NCBI GenBank assembly: GCA_947038515.1
Contig: CAMQWJ010000014.1
Coordinates: 1-47,051 of the forward strand
DNA: 47,051 nucleotides
Direction of reading: 5' to 3'
Source of the DNA: an uncultured Fusobacteriaceae bacterium
Lineage (GTDB): Bacteria; Fusobacteriota; Fusobacteriia; Fusobacteriales; Fusobacteriaceae
Position numbers and translations under genes: made by a program. This document shows, in pieces, positions 7,291-41,412 of this stretch; the stretch's first letter is position 1, and every line of letters begins with the position of its first letter. The notes below the pieces were generated by a model, which did no database searches, was not told the origin of the DNA, and was given only the letters and a program-made list of their open reading frames with translations.

Positions 7291-9324
7291 TTAAAAACTA
7301 TATTTTATACTCACTGTATAAACTCTTCCAGGTGCAGGTAGTTTTTGTTGTATAACATATTCATCTCCCAACGGAGACCAACCCCAAGCTCCTACATATC
7401 TTGCATACTGTTCATCAAAAACATTGTCAATTCTAGCAGTTAATAGTAGGTTATCATTTATTCTATATGATGAAAAAATATCTAAAGTTATATAACTCTT
7501 TACTTTCTCTTCATATTTTGAAAGATTACTTTCAGGTCCTGTTGAAGGTAAAACACTAGTATCAAGATATTTTAAATAATCTAAATTATAAATAGAACCA
7601 TGATAAAGAGCATCTGCTCCTACAGAAAAATTAGGTGTGAAATTATATGTTGTTCCTAAAGTTAGTTTCCAGTTTGGTACACTTGGCAGCTCTTTCCCAT
7701 TGGTTATATCATTAGATTTAATTTCATGGTGTAAATAAGTTACTCCACCTCTAACTGTCAATTTATCAAAATAATGTTCCATATAAAGTTCTGCACCAAT
7801 TTTATTAACTTTCCCAATATTAGCAGTAACACTTTTATCCCATTCATCAGGGTCTAAAGGTATTTTTGAATATAAATAATTGTTTGATTTTGTATAATAA
7901 ACTGAAGCTGATAAATAAGTATCATTAATATATTCTTTTATTCCAAGTTCAATAGTATTTGTTGTTTGTGATTCAGGTTCTCCCTGAAAAGTCCCTATTT
8001 CTGATACATCTGGAGTTCTAAATGCTTGAGCATAGCTTAAATATGCTGAACCTGTCTCTGAATATAAATAATTTACAGCAAGTTCTATAGAAGTATTATT
8101 AAATTTCTTATTATCTTTTTGATACCATTTATCTGCTGGAATAACTCCAGTTAATTTTTTATAATAGAAATCGTAGTTAGTAAAATCTCTTCTTATTCCT
8201 TGAGTAAACTGGAACTTATTATAATTAATTTTATTCAATACAAACAGCCCATAATTATCTTTTTTAGATTCTAACGTTCCTCTATCTGCTGTACTCTCTG
8301 AATCTGTATGATATGATAAATCTCCACCTAAAATAATATGGCTATCTGTTAAGTATTTAACTTTAAATTGTGATCTTATATACTCTTTCCTCTCTTTATA
8401 TATATTAGTTTTATATTTTCCTAATTTTTTATCATATGGTGATGAATCATTATGTAAATAATTTGCAGATAATAAAAATTCAATATTTTCATTTATTTCT
8501 TTTCGGTATTTACCTTGAAAATCATTATATTCATATTTCCTTTTATTAAGGTTTATTACCTCTTTATTATCCATATAATAAGGGATTGTCGTTCCTAAAT
8601 CCTTACTTCCTTTAGAATAATTATATTTAAATTCAATCTCACCATCTTCCAGTAAATATTTTCCTAAAAATCTAGTATTCAATTTTTCAATATCTTCATC
8701 ATCTCTAAATGCCTTTGAATTATATTGTGTTATTCCAACACTAGTTAAAAATTTATCTCCTATCATTGTACCATAATCTAAATTTTCTTCATACAAATTA
8801 TTACTACCTATTTTCATTGATAAAGAACCATAATTTAATTCTTGTTTTGCTGATTTTGTAATAATATTAATAATTCCACCAATAGCCCCACTTCCATAAA
8901 GAACTCCACCAGAATTAGGTATAACCTCTATTTTTTCAATTGTTTCCATTGGAATTTGAGATATAGAATAGCTACTTGATGCCCCTCCTCCTATTGCATT
9001 AAGAGGTATCCCATCTACAGTAACAATAATATTTTTATTGGCATACATTGGGTTTTGTCCTCTAAGATCAAACCTTATATCTCCACCTGCATATTCCTTA
9101 ACTAATAATCCCGGAACATTTCTAAGAGCATCTACTAAATCTTTTGCTCCTGTTGTCTCAATCTCATCTTTTGTTATTATAGATATATTAGAGGGGGTAT
9201 CCCTTACATTTGTTTCAAAATCTTCCGTTGATATCACACTTTCTTCAAGTCTTATTTCTTTTAGAGGTTCCCCCCATAGATTTAAACTAAGAATTAATAT
9301 TAAAAAACTAATCTTTTTTAACAA
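7291..9324 (-). CDS. btuB: TonB-dependent outer-membrane receptor, probably for corrinoids
   Basis: A 677-aa receptor with a signal peptide (about residues 1-18) and a TonB-box-like EESVIST. The plug domain (about 30-155) contains TPSNISIITKDEIE, LRNVPGLLV, VTVDGIPLNA and SGAIGGIINIITK. A 22-strand-type barrel follows and ends in VSIKYSF with the terminal aromatic residue recognised by BAM. The start is probably TTG with GGGGGA seven bases upstream. As the first gene after the cobalamin riboswitch, it should be switched off when cobalamin is plentiful. BtuB is therefore the best name, although the barrel sequence itself does not prove the ligand. Confidence 0.85.
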   Translation of the reverse strand: MLKKISFLILILSLNLWGEPLKEIRLEESVISTEDFETNVRDTPSNISIITKDEIETTGAKDLVDALRNVPGLLVKEYAGGDIRFDLRGQNPMYANKNIIVTVDGIPLNAIGGGASSSYSISQIPMETIEKIEVIPNSGGVLYGSGAIGGIINIITKSAKQELNYGSLSMKIGSNNLYEENLDYGTMIGDKFLTSVGITQYNSKAFRDDEDIEKLNTRFLGKYLLEDGEIEFKYNYSKGSKDLGTTIPYYMDNKEVINLNKRKYEYNDFQGKYRKEINENIEFLLSANYLHNDSSPYDKKLGKYKTNIYKERKEYIRSQFKVKYLTDSHIILGGDLSYHTDSESTADRGTLESKKDNYGLFVLNKINYNKFQFTQGIRRDFTNYDFYYKKLTGVIPADKWYQKDNKKFNNTSIELAVNYLYSETGSAYLSYAQAFRTPDVSEIGTFQGEPESQTTNTIELGIKEYINDTYLSASVYYTKSNNYLYSKIPLDPDEWDKSVTANIGKVNKIGAELYMEHYFDKLTVRGGVTYLHHEIKSNDITNGKELPSVPNWKLTLGTTYNFTPNFSVGADALYHGSIYNLDYLKYLDTSVLPSTGPESNLSKYEEKVKSYITLDIFSSYRINDNLLLTARIDNVFDEQYARYVGAWGWSPLGDEYVIQQKLPAPGRVYTVSIKYSF

Positions 9325-9382
9325 ATTGATTCCCCCTTTATTTTGTATTATAACGTAGTATCAATGATAAAAAATATCAAAT

Positions 9383-9414
9383 AAAAAAGTCCACCCAAAA
9401 ATAGAGTAGACTTT
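9383..9414 (-). terminator. Leader terminator between riboswitch and btuB
   Basis: On the minus strand AAAGTCTAC pairs with GTGGACTTT (one G-U pair) around an 11-nt loop, followed by a run of six T. It lies between the riboswitch and the btuB start codon. It is thus the likely expression platform: ligand binding lets it form and stops transcription. I did not find the competing antiterminator pairing by eye. Confidence 0.75.
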
Positions 9415-9431
9415 CACTGTTATATATACAA

Positions 9432-9592
9432 TAAAACGGTAAGTCTCCTGACTTAGTTTCTCCCTACTCTCACGCCTTCCCAGTCTCCCAGTGACATATT
9501 GTGATTTCGTCCACCATACAGTAGCTTTCGCTGTGTGGGATTCTCACCCAACTTCCTCTATTAAGTTAATAACACCTTTATTACTTTTTATT
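9432..9592 (-). promoter_or_regulatory. Cobalamin riboswitch
   Basis: Read on the minus strand, the leader holds the conserved elements in order: GGAAGTTGGGTGAGAATCCCACAC, the GCTACTG element, GTCACTGGG, CTGGGAAGGCG, and the B12 box AAGTCAGGAGACTTACCG (9437-9454). These match the adenosylcobalamin-class aptamer core. It stands between a good promoter (9607-9636) and the terminator at 9383-9414, just upstream of the TonB-dependent receptor. It therefore probably controls the whole five-gene uptake operon. Confidence 0.93.
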
Positions 9593-9606
9593 TAAATCTG
9601 TTCCAT

Positions 9607-9636
9607 ATTCTATCATATTTAATATATAGCTGTCAA
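9607..9636 (-). promoter_or_regulatory. Promoter of the corrinoid uptake operon
   Basis: On the minus strand TTGACA (9631-9636) and TAGAAT (9607-9612) are separated by 18 nt, and the riboswitch starts a few bases downstream. The -35 lies only about 22 nt past the stop of the membrane-protein gene at 9658, and I see no terminator between them. Confidence 0.7.
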
Positions 9637-9657
9637 TTTATAAGGTAATATCTATTT

Positions 9658-10320
9658 TCATTTATAATCTTTATCATCTGTACAATTCTGTTTTTTTTGC
9701 CCTTCTATCTCCACACAATTAAAAATAAAGTTATTTATTTTTACCATTTCTTCTACATTAACAAAATTATAATCTTTTGTTTTTAAAATTATTATTTTTT
9801 TCTTACTATCTTTTTTTTCTTTTACTTCATAATTAACAACTAAATAATTTCTGGAATTATATATTGGCAAAATAGCTTTTGATTCCCCATTTTTTAAATA
9901 TCCTATTTCATATTGTCTATTTGTAGATACATCTTCTTTATAAAAGAACAAACAAATAAATATAATGAACATAACTATAATTGGCATGATCACCAATATA
10001 GAAAAGATATTTAATAAACAATCTACTCTAGTTTTCTTCTTTTTAATCTCTCGATAGATAAAGTGACTGTACAATATAATATATGTGAGCATTATAGTCG
10101 CAATCATTAATAACATTATATAGTATCCTTTACTTAACTCTATATTAATTTGTCCCTGAGGTATCATATAATATTTTGAATATGATTTTTCTTTATTCCA
10201 CTCTATCCCTAAATAAATTATTGGTAAAATTATTGGTAATATTACTCCTATAATTGAACAATAATAACCAATTTTTTTTATACAATCCCCTCTTCCTATT
10301 TTCTTCATAATTTTCTTCAT
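9658..10320 (-). CDS. Three-helix membrane protein of unknown function, in the defence island
   Basis: A 220-aa protein with three hydrophobic segments (about residues 17-39, 68-94 and 104-131) and a hydrophilic C-terminal domain of ~85 residues ending CTDDKDYK. The start is well supported by AAGGAGGAG just before the ATG. It begins 33 nt after the DUF262/HNH gene and is probably co-transcribed with it. I do not recognise the family. Small membrane proteins beside nucleases or RTs in defence islands often act as membrane-damaging effectors, but nothing in this sequence proves that role. Confidence 0.65.
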   Translation of the reverse strand: MKKIMKKIGRGDCIKKIGYYCSIIGVILPIILPIIYLGIEWNKEKSYSKYYMIPQGQINIELSKGYYIMLLMIATIMLTYIILYSHFIYREIKKKKTRVDCLLNIFSILVIMPIIVMFIIFICLFFYKEDVSTNRQYEIGYLKNGESKAILPIYNSRNYLVVNYEVKEKKDSKKKIIILKTKDYNFVNVEEMVKINNFIFNCVEIEGQKKQNCTDDKDYK

Positions 10321-10353
10321 AATCTCCTCCTTATTTTTTATTCTAGATAATTT

Positions 10354-12402
10354 TTATTTCTTACTTAACATAAAATATATATCTTCAGCCATTCCATAGT
10401 GAACAGCTATTATTTTACAATAATTTAAAATATCAATTGCACTTAAATTTGTTTCAATATAAATACCCTCTCCAATACAAAATGGAGACCTTAGAGAATC
10501 AGAGGTATTATCTATTATATATTTATCACGTCCAGTAAAATCTTTATGCTTAATTAAATTATAAAAAACTGAACTATCTAAACTATACAAATCACAGCAA
10601 ATTTGTTTTAATAAATCTTTCCATGACGAAATAGAATATTCTGTATCCAAAATAACTAGCTGTTTTGGTTTTACACCAGTAACATTAATATCAGTTAATA
10701 TATTATATAGTGTTGTAGAGTCGATCATCTCTAAATTTTCTTTTTGCTTATTATATTTTTCAGGTAGTGGCCATATATTTAAAGCTTTTTCAAATAATAT
10801 TTGAGCTCTTTTTTTTATTGAAGTATCATCCCAAATATCATAATTCACAACATCTCGACACATCCCTATATTAGAATTTTTATAAATTTCTTTTTTATCA
10901 TTAAAAATTTTATTAGAAAGTTCTGAGTTATAAGCTGTTAAAGTTAAGTTTCCTATAGTATTTAAAAATTCACTATGAATTTCTTCAAATTTTTTACCTA
11001 ATTCAATTTGCCATTGTGGTGTAAGCTTTTTAGGCATTATATGCTCTATTGAAATTAGGTTAGTCAATTGAATTTTCTCTTTTGATGAAATATGTTCTAA
11101 CTGTTGTAAAATATATCTATCAATTTTAGTATTATATAATGGTTTTTGTATAAAAGATATTTCAAACTGCTCATTTTTTGGAAATGTTCCTGTAGAAGTC
11201 TTTTTAGATAAAATACTTAATATCTTGTCTATATATATAGGTTCCGAATTTCCCTCTATTTCACTAATTAAATTTGTAAAAATTTTATTTAAAGCATTAG
11301 ATTGAAAATTACAAATCTGTCTTCTTACTATATATGAAATAAAAATTTTTAAAATTTCTATTAACTCATCTTCTGTCATTTTTTTATAAGAGAAACAGTC
11401 TTCAAAAATATATAGTAAGACTGGATAAATTGTAGTTGATTTAAGTTGTTGAAATTGCTCAAGATAATAATTTATTCTACTGTTCTCAGAATCATAATAT
11501 AGAAACCAAGAATAATATTTTGAAAACAATAATAATTCTTCTAGTAATCCTTCTTCATCAAAATTATTTTTTGGGTTCAGTGCAAATTCTTTAAAATTTT
11601 CATATACTCTACTCTTAGCTATTATAGAATTAGTTTTCATAGTAAGGTAATCACGAACAAAATCAGATATTTTACTATTGTTTAATATTGTTTCCATTTT
11701 CAACCAATAATCAGTGTACAATCTCCCTTGTTCTGCTGCAGAATGATTCATAAGTAAAAAATTTCTAATTAAGTCACCTGGTGTTAAAGACAATCCTGTG
11801 GAATTCAAGCTTTCAAAAATTAGCTGTGGATTTTCTGATTTTTTATCTTTCTCTAACTGAATATATACAATTTCTACATTATTTAAGGCATCATAAAGAT
11901 TTTTTGGAGAAACATTTGATTCCTCTATTAAACTTTTAAAAAAATTATAGTTATTTATAATATTATTATCTTTGTCAGCATATTCATTTGCTAAAATATC
12001 TCTATATGCTACCATATCACTTTCTATAGGCTTAAGTTTTATTCTTAAAGGCTCTGAAGCTCTCTTATTAATTATATATGATTCATATATATCTTCTTTT
12101 ATATTTTCATCATCAATTAAATCGTGTAATGCTTTTAAAAATAAAGTTATACTTGTTATTCTTTGCTGTCCATCAATCACTATATACTCTATAAATGTAG
12201 GTTGTACATAAGAAACCACATAAACTACAGTCCCCAAAAAATGTTCAATTTCAAAATTATTAAGTGCAATTTTTTCAATATCTTGAAATAACCTTTTACA
12301 GTGTTCTCTTTTCCAATCATAATTTCTTTGATATACTGGAATGTTAAAAGTTCTTTTTCCAGAACCTAAAAATTCTAATAATCTTATTTTATTTGCTTCC
12401 AT
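10354..12402 (-). CDS. DUF262/DUF1524 (GmrSD-like) HNH protein
   Basis: Domains in order: DUF262 with FNIPVYQRNYDW (about residues 20-31), the nucleotide-binding-type motif VIDGQQRITS (75-84) and FESLNSTGLSL (196-206); then a helical middle; then a DUF1524/HNH-type nuclease centred on IEHIMP (452-457) with GNLTLT and N-rich residues after it; and a ~110-residue C-terminal module. This matches single-chain GmrSD-type enzymes, which cut modified phage DNA, and related DUF262 defence proteins. An upstream ATG at 12447 extends the frame, but the ATG at 12402 has GGAGG at the right distance, and the extension overlaps an hsdS remnant, so I chose 12402 (682 aa). Both motif sets look intact. Confidence 0.85.
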   Translation of the reverse strand: MEANKIRLLEFLGSGKRTFNIPVYQRNYDWKREHCKRLFQDIEKIALNNFEIEHFLGTVVYVVSYVQPTFIEYIVIDGQQRITSITLFLKALHDLIDDENIKEDIYESYIINKRASEPLRIKLKPIESDMVAYRDILANEYADKDNNIINNYNFFKSLIEESNVSPKNLYDALNNVEIVYIQLEKDKKSENPQLIFESLNSTGLSLTPGDLIRNFLLMNHSAAEQGRLYTDYWLKMETILNNSKISDFVRDYLTMKTNSIIAKSRVYENFKEFALNPKNNFDEEGLLEELLLFSKYYSWFLYYDSENSRINYYLEQFQQLKSTTIYPVLLYIFEDCFSYKKMTEDELIEILKIFISYIVRRQICNFQSNALNKIFTNLISEIEGNSEPIYIDKILSILSKKTSTGTFPKNEQFEISFIQKPLYNTKIDRYILQQLEHISSKEKIQLTNLISIEHIMPKKLTPQWQIELGKKFEEIHSEFLNTIGNLTLTAYNSELSNKIFNDKKEIYKNSNIGMCRDVVNYDIWDDTSIKKRAQILFEKALNIWPLPEKYNKQKENLEMIDSTTLYNILTDINVTGVKPKQLVILDTEYSISSWKDLLKQICCDLYSLDSSVFYNLIKHKDFTGRDKYIIDNTSDSLRSPFCIGEGIYIETNLSAIDILNYCKIIAVHYGMAEDIYFMLSKK

Positions 12403-12439
12403 AATTTTCCTCCACTTGTATTTAACCCTAAGACTACTT

Positions 12440-12508
12440 TTATACAAACATCTGTTGCAATAAACCTTTTTTATGATCTTTTTTTAATATACTTAATTCT
12501 TTTTCTAT
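12440..12508 (-). pseudogene. hsdS: Remnant 3' end of an hsdS gene
   Basis: On the minus strand this stretch reads IEKELSILKKDHKKGLLQQM then FV and a stop, the typical C-terminal helix of a type I restriction specificity subunit. Only 22 codons remain, and a stop codon precedes them in frame. The nucleotide sequence aligns along about 67 nt with the 3' end of the broken hsdS at 15675. The remnant sits between the RT gene and the DUF262 gene, with nothing else recognisable in 12509-12602. Confidence 0.8.
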
Positions 12509-12602
12509 TTACATGGGTTTCTCCTAGTAATTTAATTCTTATATTTTATTTTTTTATAATATTTTTAGTTAATATGAGGTGTCTTTATAATTCTAAAAAT
12601 AT

Positions 12603-15600
12603 CTATTTATTATTTTTCATTGATTCAAAATCTATTTTTTCTCTGTTATAAGTGTATTTAATTTTATAATTAGGTGGAGTCGGTTTAAACCTTTTCTTCA
12701 ATATTTGATCTTCATGGGTTGTTTTTTGATGCTTACGCAATCCTTTTATATCTAATGTTCCTACAATTAAATTAATATTTTCTTCTCCTTTAAAATTCAG
12801 TAAAGTTTTTTCATATGATGATTTTGGTTGTGTTATTCCAATACCACCATAATTTGCTGAATTTGATTGAACTACATAGCAATTCAAATCTCTGCTTGTT
12901 GATTTTGCTATGTCATCAAAATATTCAATATCTCGATTACATTCAGAAACTATTAGAAAATCTATTAATCCTATAAATTCACTTCTCGCTCTAATATCTG
13001 TTAATTCAAAACAATTAAAAACTGTAAAAAATACTCCTTTCCAAACAAATAAATTATACTCATGGTGTTTTTCTTGGCATGGTATTTTGAATCCACGTCC
13101 CTCTATTTCCATTTTTTCCATTGGTGAATAATGATTTTTTACTCTAAACTTAACTTCTGTATTTTTAAATTTTCCCTCTTCATAGAAAGGTAAAATAGTA
13201 GCTATATAGTTATATATAACTTTTTCCTTATTGCTATTCTCTACTTTTAAATGCTCTATTCCTACAATAATAGCTATATCATTCTTTCTAGAAAATTCAA
13301 TAATTTTCTTTATCCAAACAAATGGTAATATAAGTTCTGGAAAAATAAGAATATCCACTTTTTCTTTTCTTGCACGATTTAATATTTTATTTATTTTTTG
13401 ATTTCTTTCAAAACTAATATTTGGTTTACCATCTAAGTTATTTGTCATATCATTATCTTTAACTTCCAATATTCCTAAACCTATTTTTATTTTTTCTTTT
13501 CTATTTTTATCATCAATACAATTAATTTCTATTTTATATTGGTTTTCATTCTCATATTTTTTTAAATTATTATATTTTTCAAGAACTTTAAAATTTTTGC
13601 CTTTTATCGAATATTTCTTAAAATTTTTATAAGAATTATTTTCTATTTTTATTTTTTCATCTTTTATTCTATTTATTATAAAGTCTACTAACACAAACTC
13701 ATCATAATGAATAAATCTTGGAGAAAAGTATAATTTTTCTTCAGATAGTTTTTTATCTTTAAAAAAATTAAAGTAATCAGCTTTAAAAAAATTTATTTTT
13801 TCATCTTCTATTTTTATACTATCACTTTTTTCAAGATAATTTCCTAAAGGTATATTGATATATCTTTGTCTTAACATATTACTTGTTAAATAATTTTTAC
13901 TAATTTTTTTTAAATCAGATAGCTTATCTTTTATTATTTTTTTATTATATAGAGTAAATTTATCAAAAGAATTAATATTTAATGCACAAGAGAGAGAAAA
14001 AATTATATCTAAGTGTTCTTTTAAATCTACTTTTAATACTTTTATCTTCTCTTGATCATTTATTACTTTATCTCCATTAATTTTATTAATTTTTTCTATC
14101 TCTTTATATATTTCTATATATATTTCTATTAATTCTTTATATTTTTCTCTACTTAAAAAATATGTAAATAACTTTTCCCAAAGTAATGAATATTTTATTA
14201 AATATTTCCCTTTAAAAAATAATTTTATTTCTTTTATAAATCTATCATTTTTTGTAGAAGCACTGTGATTATTTGCGCTGATTATTTTAGATAAGAAAAT
14301 TGACAATTGTAACTTATCCTCTTTTAGAGCATCAATTGCACTAAAATTATTAATAGTTCCGTTACATTGAATATCTAATGCACTATTATTAAAAGTTTCT
14401 AATAACTCTTCTTCATCTTCTGGTAAAAAATTAAAAACACTAATATTATCTTTTATTTTTTTATTAAATATATCTATAATAGCATGGGTTTCATCACTTT
14501 TAAAGAGATATACTTTTAATTTTTCACTTGAAAATTCAAAATTATTATATTTAAGAGAATTACCAAAAATAAATCTATCTTTATCAAATTCTTCAACTTC
14601 TTCTGATTCTTTAACTTCTTTTAATTCTTTAGGTTTAATATGAAATAAATCCTCTAATATTTTTTTTGTTGTTTTTTCTAATAATGGTTTATTTATTTTA
14701 AATACAAATATAAAATCATCAACATATCTTCCATAATAATCCATTTTTAAATTTTCTTCAATATATTTATCTACTTCCTTTAATGCATAATTTGCAATTA
14801 TTGGAGATGATAGCAACCCTATAGGTAATGAGTTCTCTTTTTTATTTCTTTCTTTATTTAGAGAATCACTATATTTTTCATTTATTTCTTTTATTATATT
14901 ATTTAATACTTTTTCTTTCTTATTATTAATATTCTCATTAAATTCTTTAGTTTCGTTTTCATTATTAATAAAATTTAAATTTAATATTTCAGTCGGTATA
15001 TTATAATAAAACTGTTTTATATCCATTGAAATTATTGCTATATCATTTTTATCTTCTTCTAACATTTGTTTTGCTTTCGTTAGTGCCCTATTTCTCCATT
15101 TTTGATATTGTACATAATAAAGTTTGAATATTTTTTTATTATTTTTTAATTTTATTATTTTTTTTATTCCATTACTATAAATAGTTTCTTCTTTTATACT
15201 ATTTAATCTATTTCCATAACTATTTGTTGATAAAGTATAATCAAGTTTTTTTCCCACTATTTGAGTCCATAATACTGCAATTATATGAAGTTCTATTGGA
15301 GCATCAATTATATAATTAATATTTACTGTGTGATTTATTTGATTACTATCCATAAAAAAATGGGTTATCAAACCATCCTCTTCTTTTTTTTCTTCTTCTT
15401 TTAGTGATTTAATTATTCTCTTAAAAGATATTTTTTTTATTAACTGTCCTATATAATTATTCTCATTTATTCCCTTAGCAATACATTCAAATTTTCCTTC
15501 CATTCCTCCAAAATTTTCTGCTTCAAATTTAGCAATTTGATGTTTAATATATATAGTACTACTATTATCATGATAGTAGTGACTTTTTAGTGCCATATAT

Positions 15601-15629
15601 GCTTTTTTTATTTCTGTTTTTTCTATCAT
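12603..15629 (-). CDS. Reverse transcriptase-nitrilase fusion, DRT type 1-like (UG-class) defence protein
   Basis: Counting from the upstream ATG at 15641, the RT part carries IISMDIKQFYYNIP (catalytic Asp at ~207), LPIGLLSSPIIANYAL (~272-287) and YYGRYVDDFIFVFK, with YVDD at ~306-309. A long Lys-rich helical region follows (~320-715). The C-terminal ~290 residues are a carbon-nitrogen hydrolase with Glu in FPEL (~769), a Lys in VKFRVKNHYSP (~831 or 835) and Cys in FNCFELTD (~877), so both active sites look intact. RT-nitrilase fusions are known from DRT type 1 (UG1) and related UG-class anti-phage systems. There is no group II intron maturase domain. I prefer the ATG at 15629 because GAGGG precedes it. 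It starts 45 nt after the broken hsdS and may be co-transcribed with it. Confidence 0.88.
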   Translation of the reverse strand: MIEKTEIKKAYMALKSHYYHDNSSTIYIKHQIAKFEAENFGGMEGKFECIAKGINENNYIGQLIKKISFKRIIKSLKEEEKKEEDGLITHFFMDSNQINHTVNINYIIDAPIELHIIAVLWTQIVGKKLDYTLSTNSYGNRLNSIKEETIYSNGIKKIIKLKNNKKIFKLYYVQYQKWRNRALTKAKQMLEEDKNDIAIISMDIKQFYYNIPTEILNLNFINNENETKEFNENINNKKEKVLNNIIKEINEKYSDSLNKERNKKENSLPIGLLSSPIIANYALKEVDKYIEENLKMDYYGRYVDDFIFVFKINKPLLEKTTKKILEDLFHIKPKELKEVKESEEVEEFDKDRFIFGNSLKYNNFEFSSEKLKVYLFKSDETHAIIDIFNKKIKDNISVFNFLPEDEEELLETFNNSALDIQCNGTINNFSAIDALKEDKLQLSIFLSKIISANNHSASTKNDRFIKEIKLFFKGKYLIKYSLLWEKLFTYFLSREKYKELIEIYIEIYKEIEKINKINGDKVINDQEKIKVLKVDLKEHLDIIFSLSCALNINSFDKFTLYNKKIIKDKLSDLKKISKNYLTSNMLRQRYINIPLGNYLEKSDSIKIEDEKINFFKADYFNFFKDKKLSEEKLYFSPRFIHYDEFVLVDFIINRIKDEKIKIENNSYKNFKKYSIKGKNFKVLEKYNNLKKYENENQYKIEINCIDDKNRKEKIKIGLGILEVKDNDMTNNLDGKPNISFERNQKINKILNRARKEKVDILIFPELILPFVWIKKIIEFSRKNDIAIIVGIEHLKVENSNKEKVIYNYIATILPFYEEGKFKNTEVKFRVKNHYSPMEKMEIEGRGFKIPCQEKHHEYNLFVWKGVFFTVFNCFELTDIRARSEFIGLIDFLIVSECNRDIEYFDDIAKSTSRDLNCYVVQSNSANYGGIGITQPKSSYEKTLLNFKGEENINLIVGTLDIKGLRKHQKTTHEDQILKKRFKPTPPNYKIKYTYNREKIDFESMKNNK

Positions 15630-15674
15630 TACATCCCTCATTAAAATAATATTTTTACAAAAAACATTGTAATT

Positions 15675-16821
15675 TTATATGAACATTTGTTGTAATAAAC
15701 CATCTTTATATTTTTTTATATTAATTACTTCTTTGTCTATTTTATCAATTTTTCTATCTAAAGACACTAGAAAATCAGATATTTTTTTTGTTCCAAAACC
15801 ATAGGAATATCCAATTTAATTTTTAGCATTTCACTTTTATTTAATTTACTACGACTTGTCCCATTTATACACTCTCTAATATCTTTATGAACAACAGAAT
15901 AAAATAAAAATTCTATTAATATACTTTTACTTCCCTTTAGAACATGGGCATGATTATTCACCCATGATTTACCTTTAATTATTTGAGCTATTGGCTTTTC
16001 TTTAAATTCTTCAAAATTACCACCATCTTCAGCAAGAAGAACTAAAGTTTCATTAAAAATAAAATCGTTAATATACCCTTGTATTCCATTAGCACCATAA
16101 TAAGGTACTCTTCCTTTAATTAAAGAACGTTCTGCCACGTTTAGAGGCTTTCTTTTGTTATCTAAACATTCACAAACTCCCCCAATTCTTTCTCCACCCA
16201 ATCAGGATAATCATTCCCATTCTCATCTTTAAATCGTATTTCTTGGCTAAATATCTTCTGCATCATTCCTTTTTTATACTGCTTCAACAATTCCACTTTC
16301 TTCTCTATTTTTTCTATCTTTGTATCTACTGAGGATAAAAAAGAAGAAATTTCCTCTTGTTCTGGGAGAAGAGGAAATAATACTTCTAATTCCTTTATAA
16401 CATTACTATTAATAGAATCAAAAGTACTACCTTGAGAATATTTTTGCCATTTTTTTTCATAATTAATGAGGTATTGAAAAATAAATTTTTGTGCTTCTTT
16501 TTTTCCTCGAATTGCACAAACACCTCTTCCAATGCAACTTTCAATATTTGAAGTAGCAATCGTTCCAGCAGGAGCCCTTACCGACATAATAATATCCCCT
16601 CTATTACTTTTTTTTGTTATTTCAGTAGTATATAGCCTCACTTTAATTTTTCTATTTTTGCAATCTGCATTTCCTTGTATAAGTGGTACACCTTCAAAAT
16701 CTTCATTATATGCTGATGAATTAGGAGATTGTCCCATTATTATCTTCGCCACTTCCCCCAATCTCTTCTCTTCCCAATCCCCACTAAACTCTTTAAATCT
16801 CAACTTAGGTACTTTACTCAT
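15675..16821 (-). pseudogene. hsdS: Orphan type I restriction specificity subunit with two frameshifts
   Basis: Two target-recognition domains are present: the first starts KLRFKEFSGDWEEKRLGEV and ends in the helix EKKVELLKQYKKGMMQKIF; the second starts DYPDWVEKELGE. After the G5 run at 16179-16183 the frame shifts and runs into a stop at 16162, while the second domain continues in another frame. A second shift in the A8 run at 15782-15789 truncates EQKK; in the corrected frame ISDFLVSLDRKIDKIDK leads to GLLQQMFI and a stop at 15675. The repaired length of ~382 aa is normal. No hsdM or hsdR lies in the window. It is degraded, phase-variable, or affected by sequencing error. Confidence 0.85.
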
Positions 16822-16864
16822 TTTCTACCCCTTTCTAAGTATAAATAACCTTATTTCTCTATTT

Positions 16865-17488
16865 TTATTCAAAGATACCACTAAAAAATGCAATTCCTCC
16901 CAATATTAGTATTAATAGTATTCTTTTTATAATACCACTAACTTTATCTCCCAAACTCCTATCCAATTCATTATTTGTATAATTTTCCTCTTTCTTTATT
17001 CTTCCATCTTCATAATATTCAATAAAAGGTCCATTTAATTCACCTAGAATATAAGTTTTTTCCAACTTTATACTTCCATTCTCATAATAATCTTTACTCA
17101 TTCCATCTAATTTATCATCAATATAGTTGTCTCTCGAACTAATATTTCCATTCTCATAATATTCTTTACTCATTCCATTTAATTTATCATCAATATAGTT
17201 TTCTCTCCAACTAATATTTCCATTCTCATAATATTCCTCACATATTCCATCGAATTTATCATCAATATAGTTTTCTCTCCAACTAATATTTCCATTCTCA
17301 TAATAATATTCTCTAACACCATTTAATTTATCATCAATATAGTTTTCTATTAATTCAATACTTCCACCCTCATAATATTCTTTTCTAGTACCTTCTTTTT
17401 TTCCTAAAATATAAGTGCATTCTGATAACAATTCCCCACTTTCATAATACTCTTTCACAACTCCATCTTGAACTATTTCTTCTGTCAT
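16865..17488 (-). CDS. Tail-anchored MORN/YwqK-type repeat protein 3
   Basis: A 207-aa protein made of ~24-residue repeats of the type EYYENGNISWRENYIDDKL-(N/D)G, followed by a C-terminal hydrophobic segment (about residues 185-204) preceded by basic residues. It has no signal peptide. Such repeats form beta-hairpin arrays and are labelled MORN or YwqK-family antitoxin in many genomes, without an established biochemical role. Four repeats are nearly identical at DNA level (17079-17366). It is the last of three tandem paralogues, 43 nt before hsdS. The hydrophobic tail suggests membrane attachment with the repeats in the cytoplasm, which is inference. Confidence 0.75.
   Translation of the reverse strand: MTEEIVQDGVVKEYYESGELLSECTYILGKKEGTRKEYYEGGSIELIENYIDDKLNGVREYYYENGNISWRENYIDDKFDGICEEYYENGNISWRENYIDDKLNGMSKEYYENGNISSRDNYIDDKLDGMSKDYYENGSIKLEKTYILGELNGPFIEYYEDGRIKKEENYTNNELDRSLGDKVSGIIKRILLILILGGIAFFSGIFE
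17079..17366 (-). repeat. 72-bp in-frame tandem repeat in the MORN gene
   Basis: The block around TTCTCATAATATT (plus strand) recurs at 17079, 17151, 17223 and 17295, exactly 72 nt apart. Each copy encodes 24 residues. Copies differ at only a few bases, so copy number could change without breaking the frame. Confidence 0.85.
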
Positions 17489-17520
17489 TTTCTTTCTCCC
17501 TCCCTAAAGTAATATTTCTT

Positions 17521-18204
17521 CTATCTATTTTTAACAAAATAAACTACTACACCTATTATTAGTAATTTTATTACTATATGGAATATTCTTTTTCCTAAAC
17601 TCTTATCTAATTTCCCATTTGTATAGTTTCCTACCAACTTTATTTCTCCTGTTTCAGAGTATCTAGTAAAAGCTCCATTTAATTTGCTATTGCTATAAGT
17701 TTCTTCCAATTTTAAACTTCCTGTCTCATAGTAATCTTTTTTAATTCCTTCCAATTCTCCCATAATATAATTTTTTGTACTTTTTATTTGTCCAGTCTCA
17801 TAGTACTCGGTAGAAATTCCATTTAGTTCTCCTACAGAATAATTCAACTCATAATTTCTTTTTCCATTTTCATAATATTCTCTATAGGCTCCATCTAAAT
17901 CCCCTAAAATATTATTATATTCCATTTGTAATTCACCACTTTCATAATATCCTTTAGAAAGTCCATCTTCTTTATTGTTTTTATAATTTATCTCTACATC
18001 CATTTTTCCATTTTTATAATATCCTCTACAGATTCCCTCTAAATCTCCTATAATACAATTATATTCAAGTAGTAGCTCACCACTTTCATAATATACTTTA
18101 CAAAGTCCATCTTCTTTTCCATCAATAAAATTACCCTCAAATTTCAAGTTCTTATTTTCATAATACTCTTTTACAAATCCATTTCGAACTATTTCTTTTT
18201 TCAT
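17521..18204 (-). CDS. Tail-anchored MORN/YwqK-type repeat protein 2
   Basis: A 227-aa paralogue with about eight repeats built on (E/G)YYE(S/N)G-(E/K)-L, beginning VKEYYENKNLKFEGNFIDG. The C-terminus ends in a hydrophobic segment (IVIKLLIIGVVVYFV) and KNR. Repeats are more diverged from one another than in the neighbour at 16865, so this copy is older or under different selection. It lies 32 nt from one paralogue and 30 nt from the other, all in one direction, which fits one transcript. Function is unknown. Confidence 0.75.
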   Translation of the reverse strand: MKKEIVRNGFVKEYYENKNLKFEGNFIDGKEDGLCKVYYESGELLLEYNCIIGDLEGICRGYYKNGKMDVEINYKNNKEDGLSKGYYESGELQMEYNNILGDLDGAYREYYENGKRNYELNYSVGELNGISTEYYETGQIKSTKNYIMGELEGIKKDYYETGSLKLEETYSNSKLNGAFTRYSETGEIKLVGNYTNGKLDKSLGKRIFHIVIKLLIIGVVVYFVKNR

Positions 18205-18234
18205 TTTTTCTCCTGAAATAATAATTTTTATTCT

Positions 18235-18855
18235 TTAACTCTTTAATTTTAATGCCAAATAGAATAACATCAGACCTATTACTACTATATTTATTATTAC
18301 TTTTAATATTTTTTTCCGTAGGCTTTCATCTAATTTTCCATTTGTATAATTTCCTTCTGTTTTTATTTCATACCCCTCAGAGTATTTTATAAAAGCTCCG
18401 TTTAATTGATTATTTCTATAGGTCTCTTCCAATTTTAAACTTCCTGATTCATAGTATTCCTTTCTAATCCCTTCTAAACTACCATTAATATAGTTATTTG
18501 TCACCTTTACTCGACCATTTTCATAATACTCAACTAAAAGACCTTCCACTTCCCCATTAACATAGTTATAGTCTCCTAATAATCTTCCACTTTCATAATA
18601 TTGTTTAAAGTTTCCATCTAATTTGCCATCAATATAATTATACTCTAAGAATACTGTCCCATTTTCATAGTATTCTTTGAAGTCTCCATTCCCTATTCCA
18701 TCAATGTAATTCCCCTCAAATAATACTTTTCCATTTACATAATACTCTTTAAAAATTCCATTTAGTTTCCCATTAATATAATTTGATTCTGATTGTAATT
18801 CTCCACTTTCATAATATTCTTTTACAAGTCCATCTTGAACTATTTCTTCTGCCAT
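18235..18855 (-). CDS. Tail-anchored MORN/YwqK-type repeat protein 1
   Basis: A 206-aa first member of the triplet. About seven ~23-residue repeats (for example KEYYESGELQSESNYINGKLNG) precede a hydrophobic tail (IINIVVIGLMLFYLALKL). The start MAEEIVQDGLVKEYYESGEL is nearly the same as in protein 3 (MTEEIVQDGVVKEYYESGEL), so genes 1 and 3 share a recent ancestor or have been converted. The ATG is preceded by TAGGAGGAAAGAAG, a strong ribosome-binding site. Function is unknown; the neighbouring defence genes do not by themselves show a link. Confidence 0.75.
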   Translation of the reverse strand: MAEEIVQDGLVKEYYESGELQSESNYINGKLNGIFKEYYVNGKVLFEGNYIDGIGNGDFKEYYENGTVFLEYNYIDGKLDGNFKQYYESGRLLGDYNYVNGEVEGLLVEYYENGRVKVTNNYINGSLEGIRKEYYESGSLKLEETYRNNQLNGAFIKYSEGYEIKTEGNYTNGKLDESLRKKILKVIINIVVIGLMLFYLALKLKS

Positions 18856-18993
18856 CTTCTTTCCTCCTAAAATATGGGAGCTTCTATCCCTAATATATCA
18901 TAACAACTCTGTTTCTAGCTCTTTTAAATACTCCTGTTTCCTCTATCTTTTATATATTTAGTCTTTTATATTATAACATATTATTAAGAAAAT

Positions 18994-19024
18994 AAAAAAA
19001 TCATAGCGTTTCTTCTATGATTTT
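18994..19024 (-). terminator. Terminator after the third lipoprotein gene
   Basis: AATCATAG pairs with CTATGATT around an 8-nt loop, followed on the minus strand by seven T (18994-19000). It lies 17 nt past the stop at 19041. The rest of the gap to 18856 contains an extended -10-like TGTTATAAT (about 18969-18977) that may serve the MORN genes, but no good -35. Confidence 0.75.
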
Positions 19025-19040
19025 CTTATCTTTTATTTTC

Positions 19041-19688
19041 TTATTTAGTTTTTTTAAATTTTTTAATATCTTCAACAGTAGTATAATTATTTAAGAAAAA
19101 TTTATCTGTTTTTCCTTTATTCTCTTTTAATGTTAATGAACCTCTAGGATCAATAGTAAAGATACCTTCTGAAACTGTTGTAGTCTCACTTTTTTTACCT
19201 TTATTTTTAACAATAGTTGTTTTAATATTAACCATATTTTTTTCAGCAGTAGGAGTAATATTCCAATTATAGACACTTATATTTTTTAGAGTTCTTCCCC
19301 AGTAACTAGTCTTTTCTTCCCCAGTCCAATTTCCTATTATTTCTGATTCAAGTTTTTCCACATATGTATCCATTTCTTTTTGAAGTTTCTTATTAACTTT
19401 TATATATCTTTTTCCCTCTGCAAGAAGTTCATTATTTGATTTATCAATAGTTAACTCCAGTACAAAGAATGCAACACTAGCTTTTAAAATTTCATTTTCT
19501 TTAGTGGCTGAGAACTCCTCTTTAGAATCTGAAAACTTAAAAAGATAATTATTTTTTCCATTTTCAGTTATTACAATACTTTTATCAATTTTTTTCCAGT
19601 CTTTACTAACCCATGTCCCCTCAAATCCTTCTTTTCCACATCCTATTAAAGTTAGCATTAGTATAATTAACAGTATTATTTTTTTCAT
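19041..19688 (-). CDS. Lipoprotein of unknown function, paralogue 3
   Basis: A 215-aa protein with a lipoprotein signal peptide ending in LIGC (lipobox, Cys at residue 17), followed by GKEGFEGTWVSKDWK. The FEG(T/K)W(V/I)(S/N)K(D/N)W opening is shared by all three tandem paralogues and resembles the first strand of lipocalin-like or META-like small beta proteins, though I cannot assign a family. Later shared blocks are EIIGNWT and KNMVNIKTTIVKNKG. It has its own promoter (19729-19757) and a terminator (18994-19024). Confidence 0.75.
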   Translation of the reverse strand: MKKIILLIILMLTLIGCGKEGFEGTWVSKDWKKIDKSIVITENGKNNYLFKFSDSKEEFSATKENEILKASVAFFVLELTIDKSNNELLAEGKRYIKVNKKLQKEMDTYVEKLESEIIGNWTGEEKTSYWGRTLKNISVYNWNITPTAEKNMVNIKTTIVKNKGKKSETTTVSEGIFTIDPRGSLTLKENKGKTDKFFLNNYTTVEDIKKFKKTK

Positions 19689-19728
19689 CTCTTTACTCCC
19701 CCTTTTAATATTTGTATACTCTCTTACT

Positions 19729-19757
19729 AGTATACATTATTTTTTTCTTGTTTACAA
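19729..19757 (-). promoter_or_regulatory. Promoter of lipoprotein paralogue 3
   Basis: On the minus strand TTGTAA (19752-19757) and TATACT (19729-19734) are 17 nt apart. The spacer end AAATAATG matches the promoter before paralogue 1 at 21316-21344, so the promoter was duplicated with the gene. An inverted repeat GTATACT...AGTATAC overlaps the -10. Confidence 0.6.
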
Positions 19758-19856
19758 CTCTAATTTTTATACCAATATATTTTATTATTTTTCGCTCCTA
19801 TTCTTTATTCAGAAAATAAGAAAATAAGAAAATCATCATGTTCATTCTATGTCACC

Positions 19857-20552
19857 TTATTTATTTATTTTTTGATTTTTTTTATTTGAGTTTTTTAATC
19901 CTTTAATGTCTTCAACATTATAATCATTATCTAAAAAAAGATCAGATGTCCTTCCTTTATTTTCTTTTAGCAATATTCGACCACTAGGAGAAATAATAAA
20001 AATACCTTCTGAGGTTGTTATGGTTTCCTCTTTTTCACCTTTATTTTTAATAATAGTCGTTTGAATATTTACAATATTTTTTTCATCAGTTGGAGTAATT
20101 TTCAAATTACAAATAGTTAAATTTTTTGTAATTTCTCCTTTTAAATTCCTTGTCCCTTTCTCCTCAGTCCATTCTCCTATTATTTCTAATTTAAACTTTT
20201 CCACATATGCTTCTATTTCTTTTTGAAGTTTTCGATTAATTTGTATAAATATCTCATCTTTTCCCCTATTTTTTCCCATAATAAGATCATTATTGGATTT
20301 ATCAATAATGAAATCCAACATAAATAATCCACCATTAACTTTTAAAACACCATTTTTTTCAGTACCTGCAAATGGTTCTTCTTCTCCCTCCTCTAAAAAA
20401 GTAACAATATAATTATTATTTCCATTTTCAGTTATTTGAATCTTTTCATCTTCTTCTTTCCAATCTTTATTAACCCATTTTCCTTCAAACTCTCCTTTAC
20501 CACATCCTATTAAAGTTAACATTAATATAATTAACAGTATCATTTTTTTCAT
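19857..20552 (-). CDS. Lipoprotein of unknown function, paralogue 2
   Basis: A 231-aa protein with signal peptide MKKMILLIILMLTLIGC and lipobox Cys at 17, then GKGEFEGKWVNKDWK. It shares with its neighbours the blocks EIIGEW and KNIVNIQTTIIKNKGEKEE. It has a longer Lys/Asn-rich tail than the others. It follows paralogue 1 after only 59 nt with no visible promoter, so the two are probably one transcript. It should be anchored to an outer or inner membrane leaflet; the residue after Cys is Gly. Confidence 0.75.
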   Translation of the reverse strand: MKKMILLIILMLTLIGCGKGEFEGKWVNKDWKEEDEKIQITENGNNNYIVTFLEEGEEEPFAGTEKNGVLKVNGGLFMLDFIIDKSNNDLIMGKNRGKDEIFIQINRKLQKEIEAYVEKFKLEIIGEWTEEKGTRNLKGEITKNLTICNLKITPTDEKNIVNIQTTIIKNKGEKEETITTSEGIFIISPSGRILLKENKGRTSDLFLDNDYNVEDIKGLKNSNKKNQKINK

Positions 20553-40161: not shown

Positions 40162-41412
40162 GTGTTTCAAACATTTACTCCAAATTCAAAAGATTCTAAT
40201 CCCATTATTTTCAAACAACTAGAAGAATTACAGCCTGATTTCAGCTATAATTCTTCTTCTTTCTATTGTACTTTTTCATTAAAAGGGATGATAATAAGCT
40301 ATATTGAAGTCTTGGAAACAAACAATACTTATGAAATAATTTCTATTTACGTGAATGAAAAATATCGACATCGATTATATGGAAAAAAATTAGTGAAGTT
40401 TATAGAAAATAGAGCCTCTAAGCAAAATATTGAAAAAATAGTTACAAAATTAATTCAATGTAAAGGTTTCTTTGAAAAACTAGATTTCCAATTAGAAAAC
40501 AATGAATTTGTATATGATAAAATTAACGAAAGAAAGAAAAGATACAACGAGAATAGTAAAATTTTAATATTTTCTATAATAGGAAACATTGTTCTCGCAG
40601 TATCAAAAATTTCTGTTGGAATCACTGGTAAATCACGATCTCTATTAGCTGATGGTATCAATTCTCTATCTGATATTGCTACTTCTCTTGGAATGCTTAT
40701 AGGAGTCTACTATAGCAATATTCCAGAGGATGACGAACACCCTTATGGACATGAAAAAATAGAGTCTGTTATTGCAAGTATTCTTGGAATTATTATGATT
40801 GTTACTGGTTTTGAACTTATGAAAAATAATTTTGAATTTTTATACAACTTTTCAAAAGTTAGTCTTCATACCACCCCTACTTTTACCACTATTTATTGGG
40901 GGTTATTCTCTGCTATCATTAAATATTTTATGTATTTTTATAAAAATAAAATTGGAATCAAAACTGGAAATTCTGCATTAATTGCAGATGCAAAAGATAG
41001 TAGAAATGATATATTTACTTCCTTAGGAGCTGTCCTAGGAATTTTATTAGCAATATATATAAATCCTATTTTTGATATTTTAATGACCTTTCCTGTGGCA
41101 CTCATTATTTTAAAAGAGGGATTCCATGTGATTTTTGAGAACACTCACATAATTATGGATAAACAAGACAAAGAATTTCTTGAAAAAATAGAAGAATATT
41201 TAGAAGAAAATATTTATGTAGAAAATATTCATGATTTTAAAATGAGAAGTTCAGGAAATAGAATTTTTCTTAATATGCATATTCGTTTACTAGGAGAAAC
41301 CTCTATTAGTCAAGGACATCACCTATCTGAAACTATTGAAAATTCTATTTTAACAGATTTTCCTGAAGTAAAAGAAGTACTAATACATATTGAACCTATT
41401 ATCAAACAATAA
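40162..41412 (+). CDS. GNAT-domain / cation diffusion facilitator fusion transporter
   Basis: A 416-aa protein in two parts. Residues ~1-125 look like a GNAT acyltransferase: ISIYVNEKYRHRLYGKKLVKF resembles the acetyl-CoA-binding motif, and KGFFEKLDF the usual late F(Y/F)xKxGF motif. The second Gly of the binding motif is Lys here, so activity is doubtful. Residues ~130-330 are a CDF membrane domain with metal-site residues in LLADGINSLSD and ALIADAKDSRND plus the family motif HPYGHEKIE. The C-terminal ~75 residues are the cytoplasmic CDF domain. It probably exports Zn, Mn or Fe. The start is GTG after GAGGTG. Confidence 0.85.
   Translation: MFQTFTPNSKDSNPIIFKQLEELQPDFSYNSSSFYCTFSLKGMIISYIEVLETNNTYEIISIYVNEKYRHRLYGKKLVKFIENRASKQNIEKIVTKLIQCKGFFEKLDFQLENNEFVYDKINERKKRYNENSKILIFSIIGNIVLAVSKISVGITGKSRSLLADGINSLSDIATSLGMLIGVYYSNIPEDDEHPYGHEKIESVIASILGIIMIVTGFELMKNNFEFLYNFSKVSLHTTPTFTTIYWGLFSAIIKYFMYFYKNKIGIKTGNSALIADAKDSRNDIFTSLGAVLGILLAIYINPIFDILMTFPVALIILKEGFHVIFENTHIIMDKQDKEFLEKIEEYLEENIYVENIHDFKMRSSGNRIFLNMHIRLLGETSISQGHHLSETIENSILTDFPEVKEVLIHIEPIIKQ

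Follow-up and report, generated by a model that had tools for sequence, protein, structure and literature searches.

Reverse transcriptases (RTs) of the UG1 and UG5 groups have already been described as nitrilase fusions (PMC8934634), and anti-phage protection has been reported for a UG5 RT-nitrilase encoded with a 1TM protein on a P4 satellite of E. coli (Rousset et al. 2022, PMC9122126). In DRT1, the UG1 system, DNA-driven assembly, dormancy with a closed lid, and abortive infection have been described (Neville et al. 2026, PMC13275509). Its priming residue, Ser402, was mapped by mass spectrometry and an S402A mutant, and Lys1219 and Ala1223 of its lid are essential by mutation. According to the same work, the class 3 systems DRT1 and DRT5S/L, the latter of which we read as UG5, synthesize DNA without a template from a protein primer, and conservation of S402 does not extend to the other class 3 DRTs (PMC13275509).

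For the UG5-nitrilase family, the anti-phage role is thus validated while the mechanism is little known. Here, we analyze one of its members, encoded by an uncultured Fusobacteriaceae bacterium in a 47,051-nt stretch of DNA (the window). The family, the RT-nitrilase fusion, and the anti-phage activity of the E. coli homologue are known; from sequence comparison, we add a candidate primer, Ser401, the conservation of the lid in UG5, and the recurrence of UG5 RTs next to or within operons for type I restriction.

An intact RT-nitrilase of the UG5 family

The preliminary description had proposed an intact RT-nitrilase fusion at 12603-15629, naming no strand, and this is borne out by a single open reading frame on the minus strand, by Pfam and PADLOC matches well beyond chance level, and by an AlphaFold2 model. 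The coding strand carries 1012 uninterrupted codons (Table 1), while the plus strand of the same interval has stops throughout. Met5 is the more likely start, having an AGGG 5 nt upstream at what is, by eye, a better ribosome-binding spacing than that of the first ATG. The RT motifs named at the outset, SMDIKQ (residues 205-210), SSPIIAN, and YVDD, are all present. The gene occurs in single copy, and no second UG5 gene (small/large pair) was found in the host genome.

Table 1. Features of the RT-nitrilase gene and its immediate neighbors (window coordinates)
Feature	Coordinates	Strand	Basis or details
UG5-type RT-nitrilase fusion gene	12603..15641	-	1012 aa from first ATG; probable start Met5 at 15629
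RT fingers/palm	14601..15215	-	about residues 143-347; D207, SSPIIAN 278-284, YVDD 306-309
Ser401, candidate protein-priming residue, linker after palm	14439..14441	-	conservation and profile-profile alignment
Alpha-helical repeat domain	13500..14315	-	about residues 443-714; successive helices in AlphaFold2 model
Carbon-nitrogen hydrolase (nitrilase) domain	12639..13496	-	about residues 716-1001; tetrad E769, K835, E842, C877
C-terminal lid motif K986-P-T-P989-P990-N-Y992	12666..12686	-	K-x-x-P-[PA] conservation
GmrSD-type (DUF262) restriction protein, downstream neighbor	10354..12447	-	GmrSD_N 1e-38, GmrSD_C 1e-26; PADLOC Orf5/HEC-06
Second hsdS 3' tail, downstream of RT, before GmrSD	12438..12512	-	IEKELSILKKDHKKGLLQQMFV
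hsdS relic, type I specificity gene over three frames, upstream of RT	15675..16821	-	Methylase_S matches, two overlapping ORFs

The PADLOC RT_UG5-nitrilase profile (PDLC03780), which represents the same family and the same whole architecture, matches residues 5-1001 of the protein over positions 20-898 of its 907 (E=3.2e-215, 715 bits), against 115 bits (E=4.9e-34) for the Drt1a profile and E=0.012 for the retron-outgroup profile. L024, a homologue from an E. coli plasmid, reaches 1034 bits with the same UG5-nitrilase model, yet is only 23% identical to the fusobacterial protein. Pfam RVT_1 covers residues 169-327 (E=1.7e-9) and RTasNitrilase matches the nitrilase domain (1.1e-32), while the Pfam CN_hydrolase match is weak and sub-threshold, and NCBIfam holds no model for the protein. 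Of the initial assignment to DRT1 (UG1) and related UG-class RTs, the anti-phage UG kind stands, but DRT1/UG1 itself does not. Judged by these matches and by the contig scan and tree described below, the protein is a standard member of the known UG5-nitrilase family, neither DRT1/UG1 proper nor a new branch.

Domain architecture and active sites

The AlphaFold2 model, built on a 59-sequence alignment (mean pLDDT 80.7, pTM 0.85), places the RT up to about residue 380, followed by a linker of low confidence at about 400-440, a run of helices spanning 443-677, and, starting near 702, a nitrilase fold. The lysine-rich stretch of about 400 residues between the two domains, previously considered unrecognized, corresponds to an alpha-helical repeat domain, since the model shows helices there that match the architecture of DRT1 (PMC13275509). 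Its lysine richness may merely reflect the AT-rich genome. The catalytic residues are strongly conserved across 59 full-length homologues: D207 is invariant, as are both YVDD aspartates, E769, K835, and E842 (59/59 each), and C877 is present in 57, the remaining two having one Ser and one gap. The Glu, Lys, and Cys first put forward for the nitrilase stand as plausible catalytic residues, as do those of the RT.

The closest solved protein is DRT1 (PDB: 9yfd), in which RT and nitrilase are matched in the same order. When the model was used to search the PDB (fold library to April 2026) for similar folds, the best matches were amidases and carbamoylases (E~1e-9), with DRT9 further down and 9yfd not among the top matches; hence, the comparison with DRT1 rests on sequence. 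Common to both proteins are the RT, the helical repeats, the C-terminal nitrilase, YVDD, a serine in the linker, the lid, and the Cys nucleophile. DRT1 is the longer of the two (1229 versus 1012 aa), and where it has a 97-residue unresolved loop around the linker serine, the fusobacterial protein has a stretch of only about 45 low-confidence residues. Beyond the lid, the DRT1 chain ends soon, whereas the fusobacterial chain runs about 20 residues further.

A candidate priming serine and a conserved lid

Within residues 375-487, Ser401 is by far the lowest-entropy column of the alignment (0.12 bits, 59 rows), with serine in 58 of the 59 full-length homologues and threonine in the other. It lies 26-29 residues after an invariant lysine, the distance being exactly 27 in 54 of 59 rows, and the linker serine is kept in most split UG5 RTs. 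DRT1 Ser402 also lies in the linker after the palm, about 25-29 residues past the corresponding lysine (counted by eye on the alignment), and a global profile-profile alignment (hhalign) sets it opposite residue 400, one off from Ser401. Because it is near-invariant and at most one residue from S402 in this alignment, Ser401 is a candidate UG5 primer and the likely counterpart of S402, although the exact register is uncertain and a matter of judgment, given that the alignment pairs S402 with residue 400.

The lid of DRT1, K1219-x-x-P-A1223, is matched by K986-x-x-P989-P990 in the fusobacterial protein. Of 62 fused UG5 proteins, 51 carry the motif K-x-x-P-[PA]; among the others, some are incomplete or near variants and some have no motif. 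All four DRT1 relatives have it too, and so do 15 of 17 split nitrilases, the remaining two being interrupted by a contig end. Together, Ser401 and the lid motif offer two single-residue handles for asking if the large UG5 family, split pairs included, works as DRT1 does.

Distribution and phylogeny

A scan of genome contigs with the alignment as query yielded at least 528 relatives, the best 80 of which come from Bacteroidota, Bacillota, Pseudomonadota, Verrucomicrobiota, Fibrobacterota, archaea, and others. UG5 occurs both fused and as split pairs, in which RT_UG5_small and a separate RTasNitrilase gene encode the same domains in adjacent, often overlapping genes. The fusobacterial protein is one chain, whereas split UG5 consists of two proteins; DNA attached to the RT would therefore not be covalently joined to the nitrilase chain in the split form.

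The RT tree is a quick tree without bootstrap that includes two RTs from outside UG5 and DRT1. Inside UG5 diversity, the fusobacterial RT joins a clostridial group (SH-aLRT 87) and stands apart from the single clade formed by the DRT1 rows. With only those two outside RTs in the tree, the placement named in the preliminary description as evidence against an anti-phage RT, among retron or group II intron RTs, was not seen. The divergent branch once suspected is not supported, the RT lying within a very large, multi-phylum family.

Within the phylum, full-length matches (E < 1e-170) were found in three of 98 genomes, namely the host and two others (G006 and G024), and in neither of the other two genomes of the same genus. 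The two relatives are 36-37% identical to the protein of the window in the alignment and branch apart from it in the quick tree, so separate acquisitions of UG5-nitrilase in fusobacteria are likely. No relative was found in viral contigs or phage records, and hence there is no sign that phages carry the lineage.

Proposed mechanism

Directly in hand for the fusobacterial protein are its sequence, fold prediction, family, and conserved residues. We consider it probable that it is a single-gene class 3 defense RT of the UG5-nitrilase family that works like DRT1, by attaching DNA to itself. A role in defense is suggested by the UG5-nitrilase match, by full-length relatives in many phyla, by both active sites retaining the residues of active enzymes, and by the protection against phage that the UG5-nitrilase of the E. 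coli P4 satellite confers (PMC9122126). DRT1-like working is suggested by DRT1 being the closest solved protein and by the correspondence of Ser401 and the lid to features essential in DRT1 by mutation (S402, K1219/A1223). Counting against it are the published view that S402 is confined to DRT1 among class 3 DRTs, the one-residue offset in register, and the roughly 20 extra residues beyond the lid.

By analogy with DRT1, the RT would synthesize short DNA without a template, using the RT-nitrilase itself, most likely Ser401, as covalent primer. These DNA adducts would bring the proteins together through their nitrilase domains, yielding a poised oligomer. The C-terminal lid (K986-x-x-P-P) would cover the active site of the neighboring subunit, keeping it autoinhibited. 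Phage replication enzymes may then disturb the poised oligomer, and the nitrilase (E769/K835/E842/C877) could attack an essential metabolite. As in DRT1, the infected cell would stop growing or die before phage release.

That the E. coli UG5 system was assayed together with its 1TM partner counts against the single-gene part of this reading. UG5-nitrilase could instead be a sensor or regulator, with a separate small transmembrane protein killing the cell, as proposed for the P4-satellite system described and assayed by Rousset et al. (PMC9122126). A crude hydropathy scan found a small ORF with a predicted transmembrane segment just downstream at 14 of the 69 loci with enough flank, but at most loci, including the fusobacterial one, no such ORF follows, and no small partner gene recurs beside UG5 at the loci examined. 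Unlike the E. coli system, the fusobacterial gene has no adjacent 1TM partner; it lies beside GmrSD and hsdS relics, and GmrSD stands between the RT and the membrane protein encoded at 9658-10320. We therefore regard a separate membrane effector as unlikely.

A gene of unknown family (~480-490 aa) lies next to UG5 at four loci (L068, L071, L080, and L095), directly downstream in the first three.

Genomic neighborhood and type I restriction genes

The gene was first described as part of a fusobacterial defense island. The genome is fusobacterial and the neighbors are defense genes, but the island is small, consisting of the GmrSD-type gene and hsdS relics before ordinary genes resume. The third-frame tail of the upstream hsdS relic ends ...KKYKDGLLQQMFI*, some 33 bases short of the RT start, and shares a direct repeat (25/29 bases) with the downstream tail. 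The flanking tails and their repeat (12438-16821, minus strand) could represent a recombination scar. As a general integration signature the repeat was rejected, being absent at other loci tested. The upstream hsdS frameshifts could partly be assembly errors.

The hsdS tails on both sides of the RT recall a wider pattern: hsdS, hsdM, or hsdR occurs near UG5 at 15 of 82 related loci, commonly in the order hsdM-hsdS-UG5-hsdR. The RT-nitrilase might accordingly be retained in hsd operons as a guard of type I restriction that acts when the restriction enzyme is blocked. Most related loci have no hsd genes, however, and at the fusobacterial locus hsdS is frameshifted and hsdM and hsdR are absent from the window, although other contigs of the host genome carry two sets of type I M and R genes. 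Against the roughly one fifth of related loci with hsd genes, the few percent expected to hold a type I system in a random 19-kb stretch is a rough guess from the two host systems, not a matched control. Defense genes commonly share islands without being functionally coupled. We consider such a guard very unlikely. The broader conjecture that a single ancestral serine-priming and lid-latch device operates in all nitrilase-bearing class 3 RTs, with Ser401 as the UG5 primer despite the published view that the DRT1 site is not shared outside DRT1, and that UG5 proteins in hsd operons guard type I restriction, appears quite unlikely as well.

The decay of the adjacent hsdS, frameshifted twice, and the absence of the gene from two genomes of the same genus might also suggest a relic, expressed weakly or not at all in an island decaying along with hsdS. 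Beside that decayed gene, however, the RT frame runs unbroken through 1012 codons and retains every catalytic residue, and we give this possibility very little credence.

Other features of the window

By eye, the C-terminal extension of GmrSD (10354-10800, minus strand) resembles the C-terminus of a UG5-neighbor protein in another fusobacterial genome (L003:4293-4985). An Rfam scan of 9300-19000 returned a cobalamin riboswitch and no other known ncRNA of the kind that would accompany a retron or another ncRNA-dependent DRT, new ncRNA families being beyond its reach. The riboswitch (RF00174, 1.7e-17; 9421-9594, minus strand) lies upstream of a TonB receptor/periplasmic-binding/FecCD transport operon, presumably for B12 uptake. 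On the other side of the RT, three tandem genes for MORN-repeat-like proteins (16865-18855, minus strand; MORN_2 shown for the first) precede a pair of small, paralogous lipoprotein-like genes (19041-20552). Further along, a single ORF (40162-41412, plus strand) combines a GNAT acetyltransferase domain with a cation-efflux (zinc) transporter that includes its dimerization domain.
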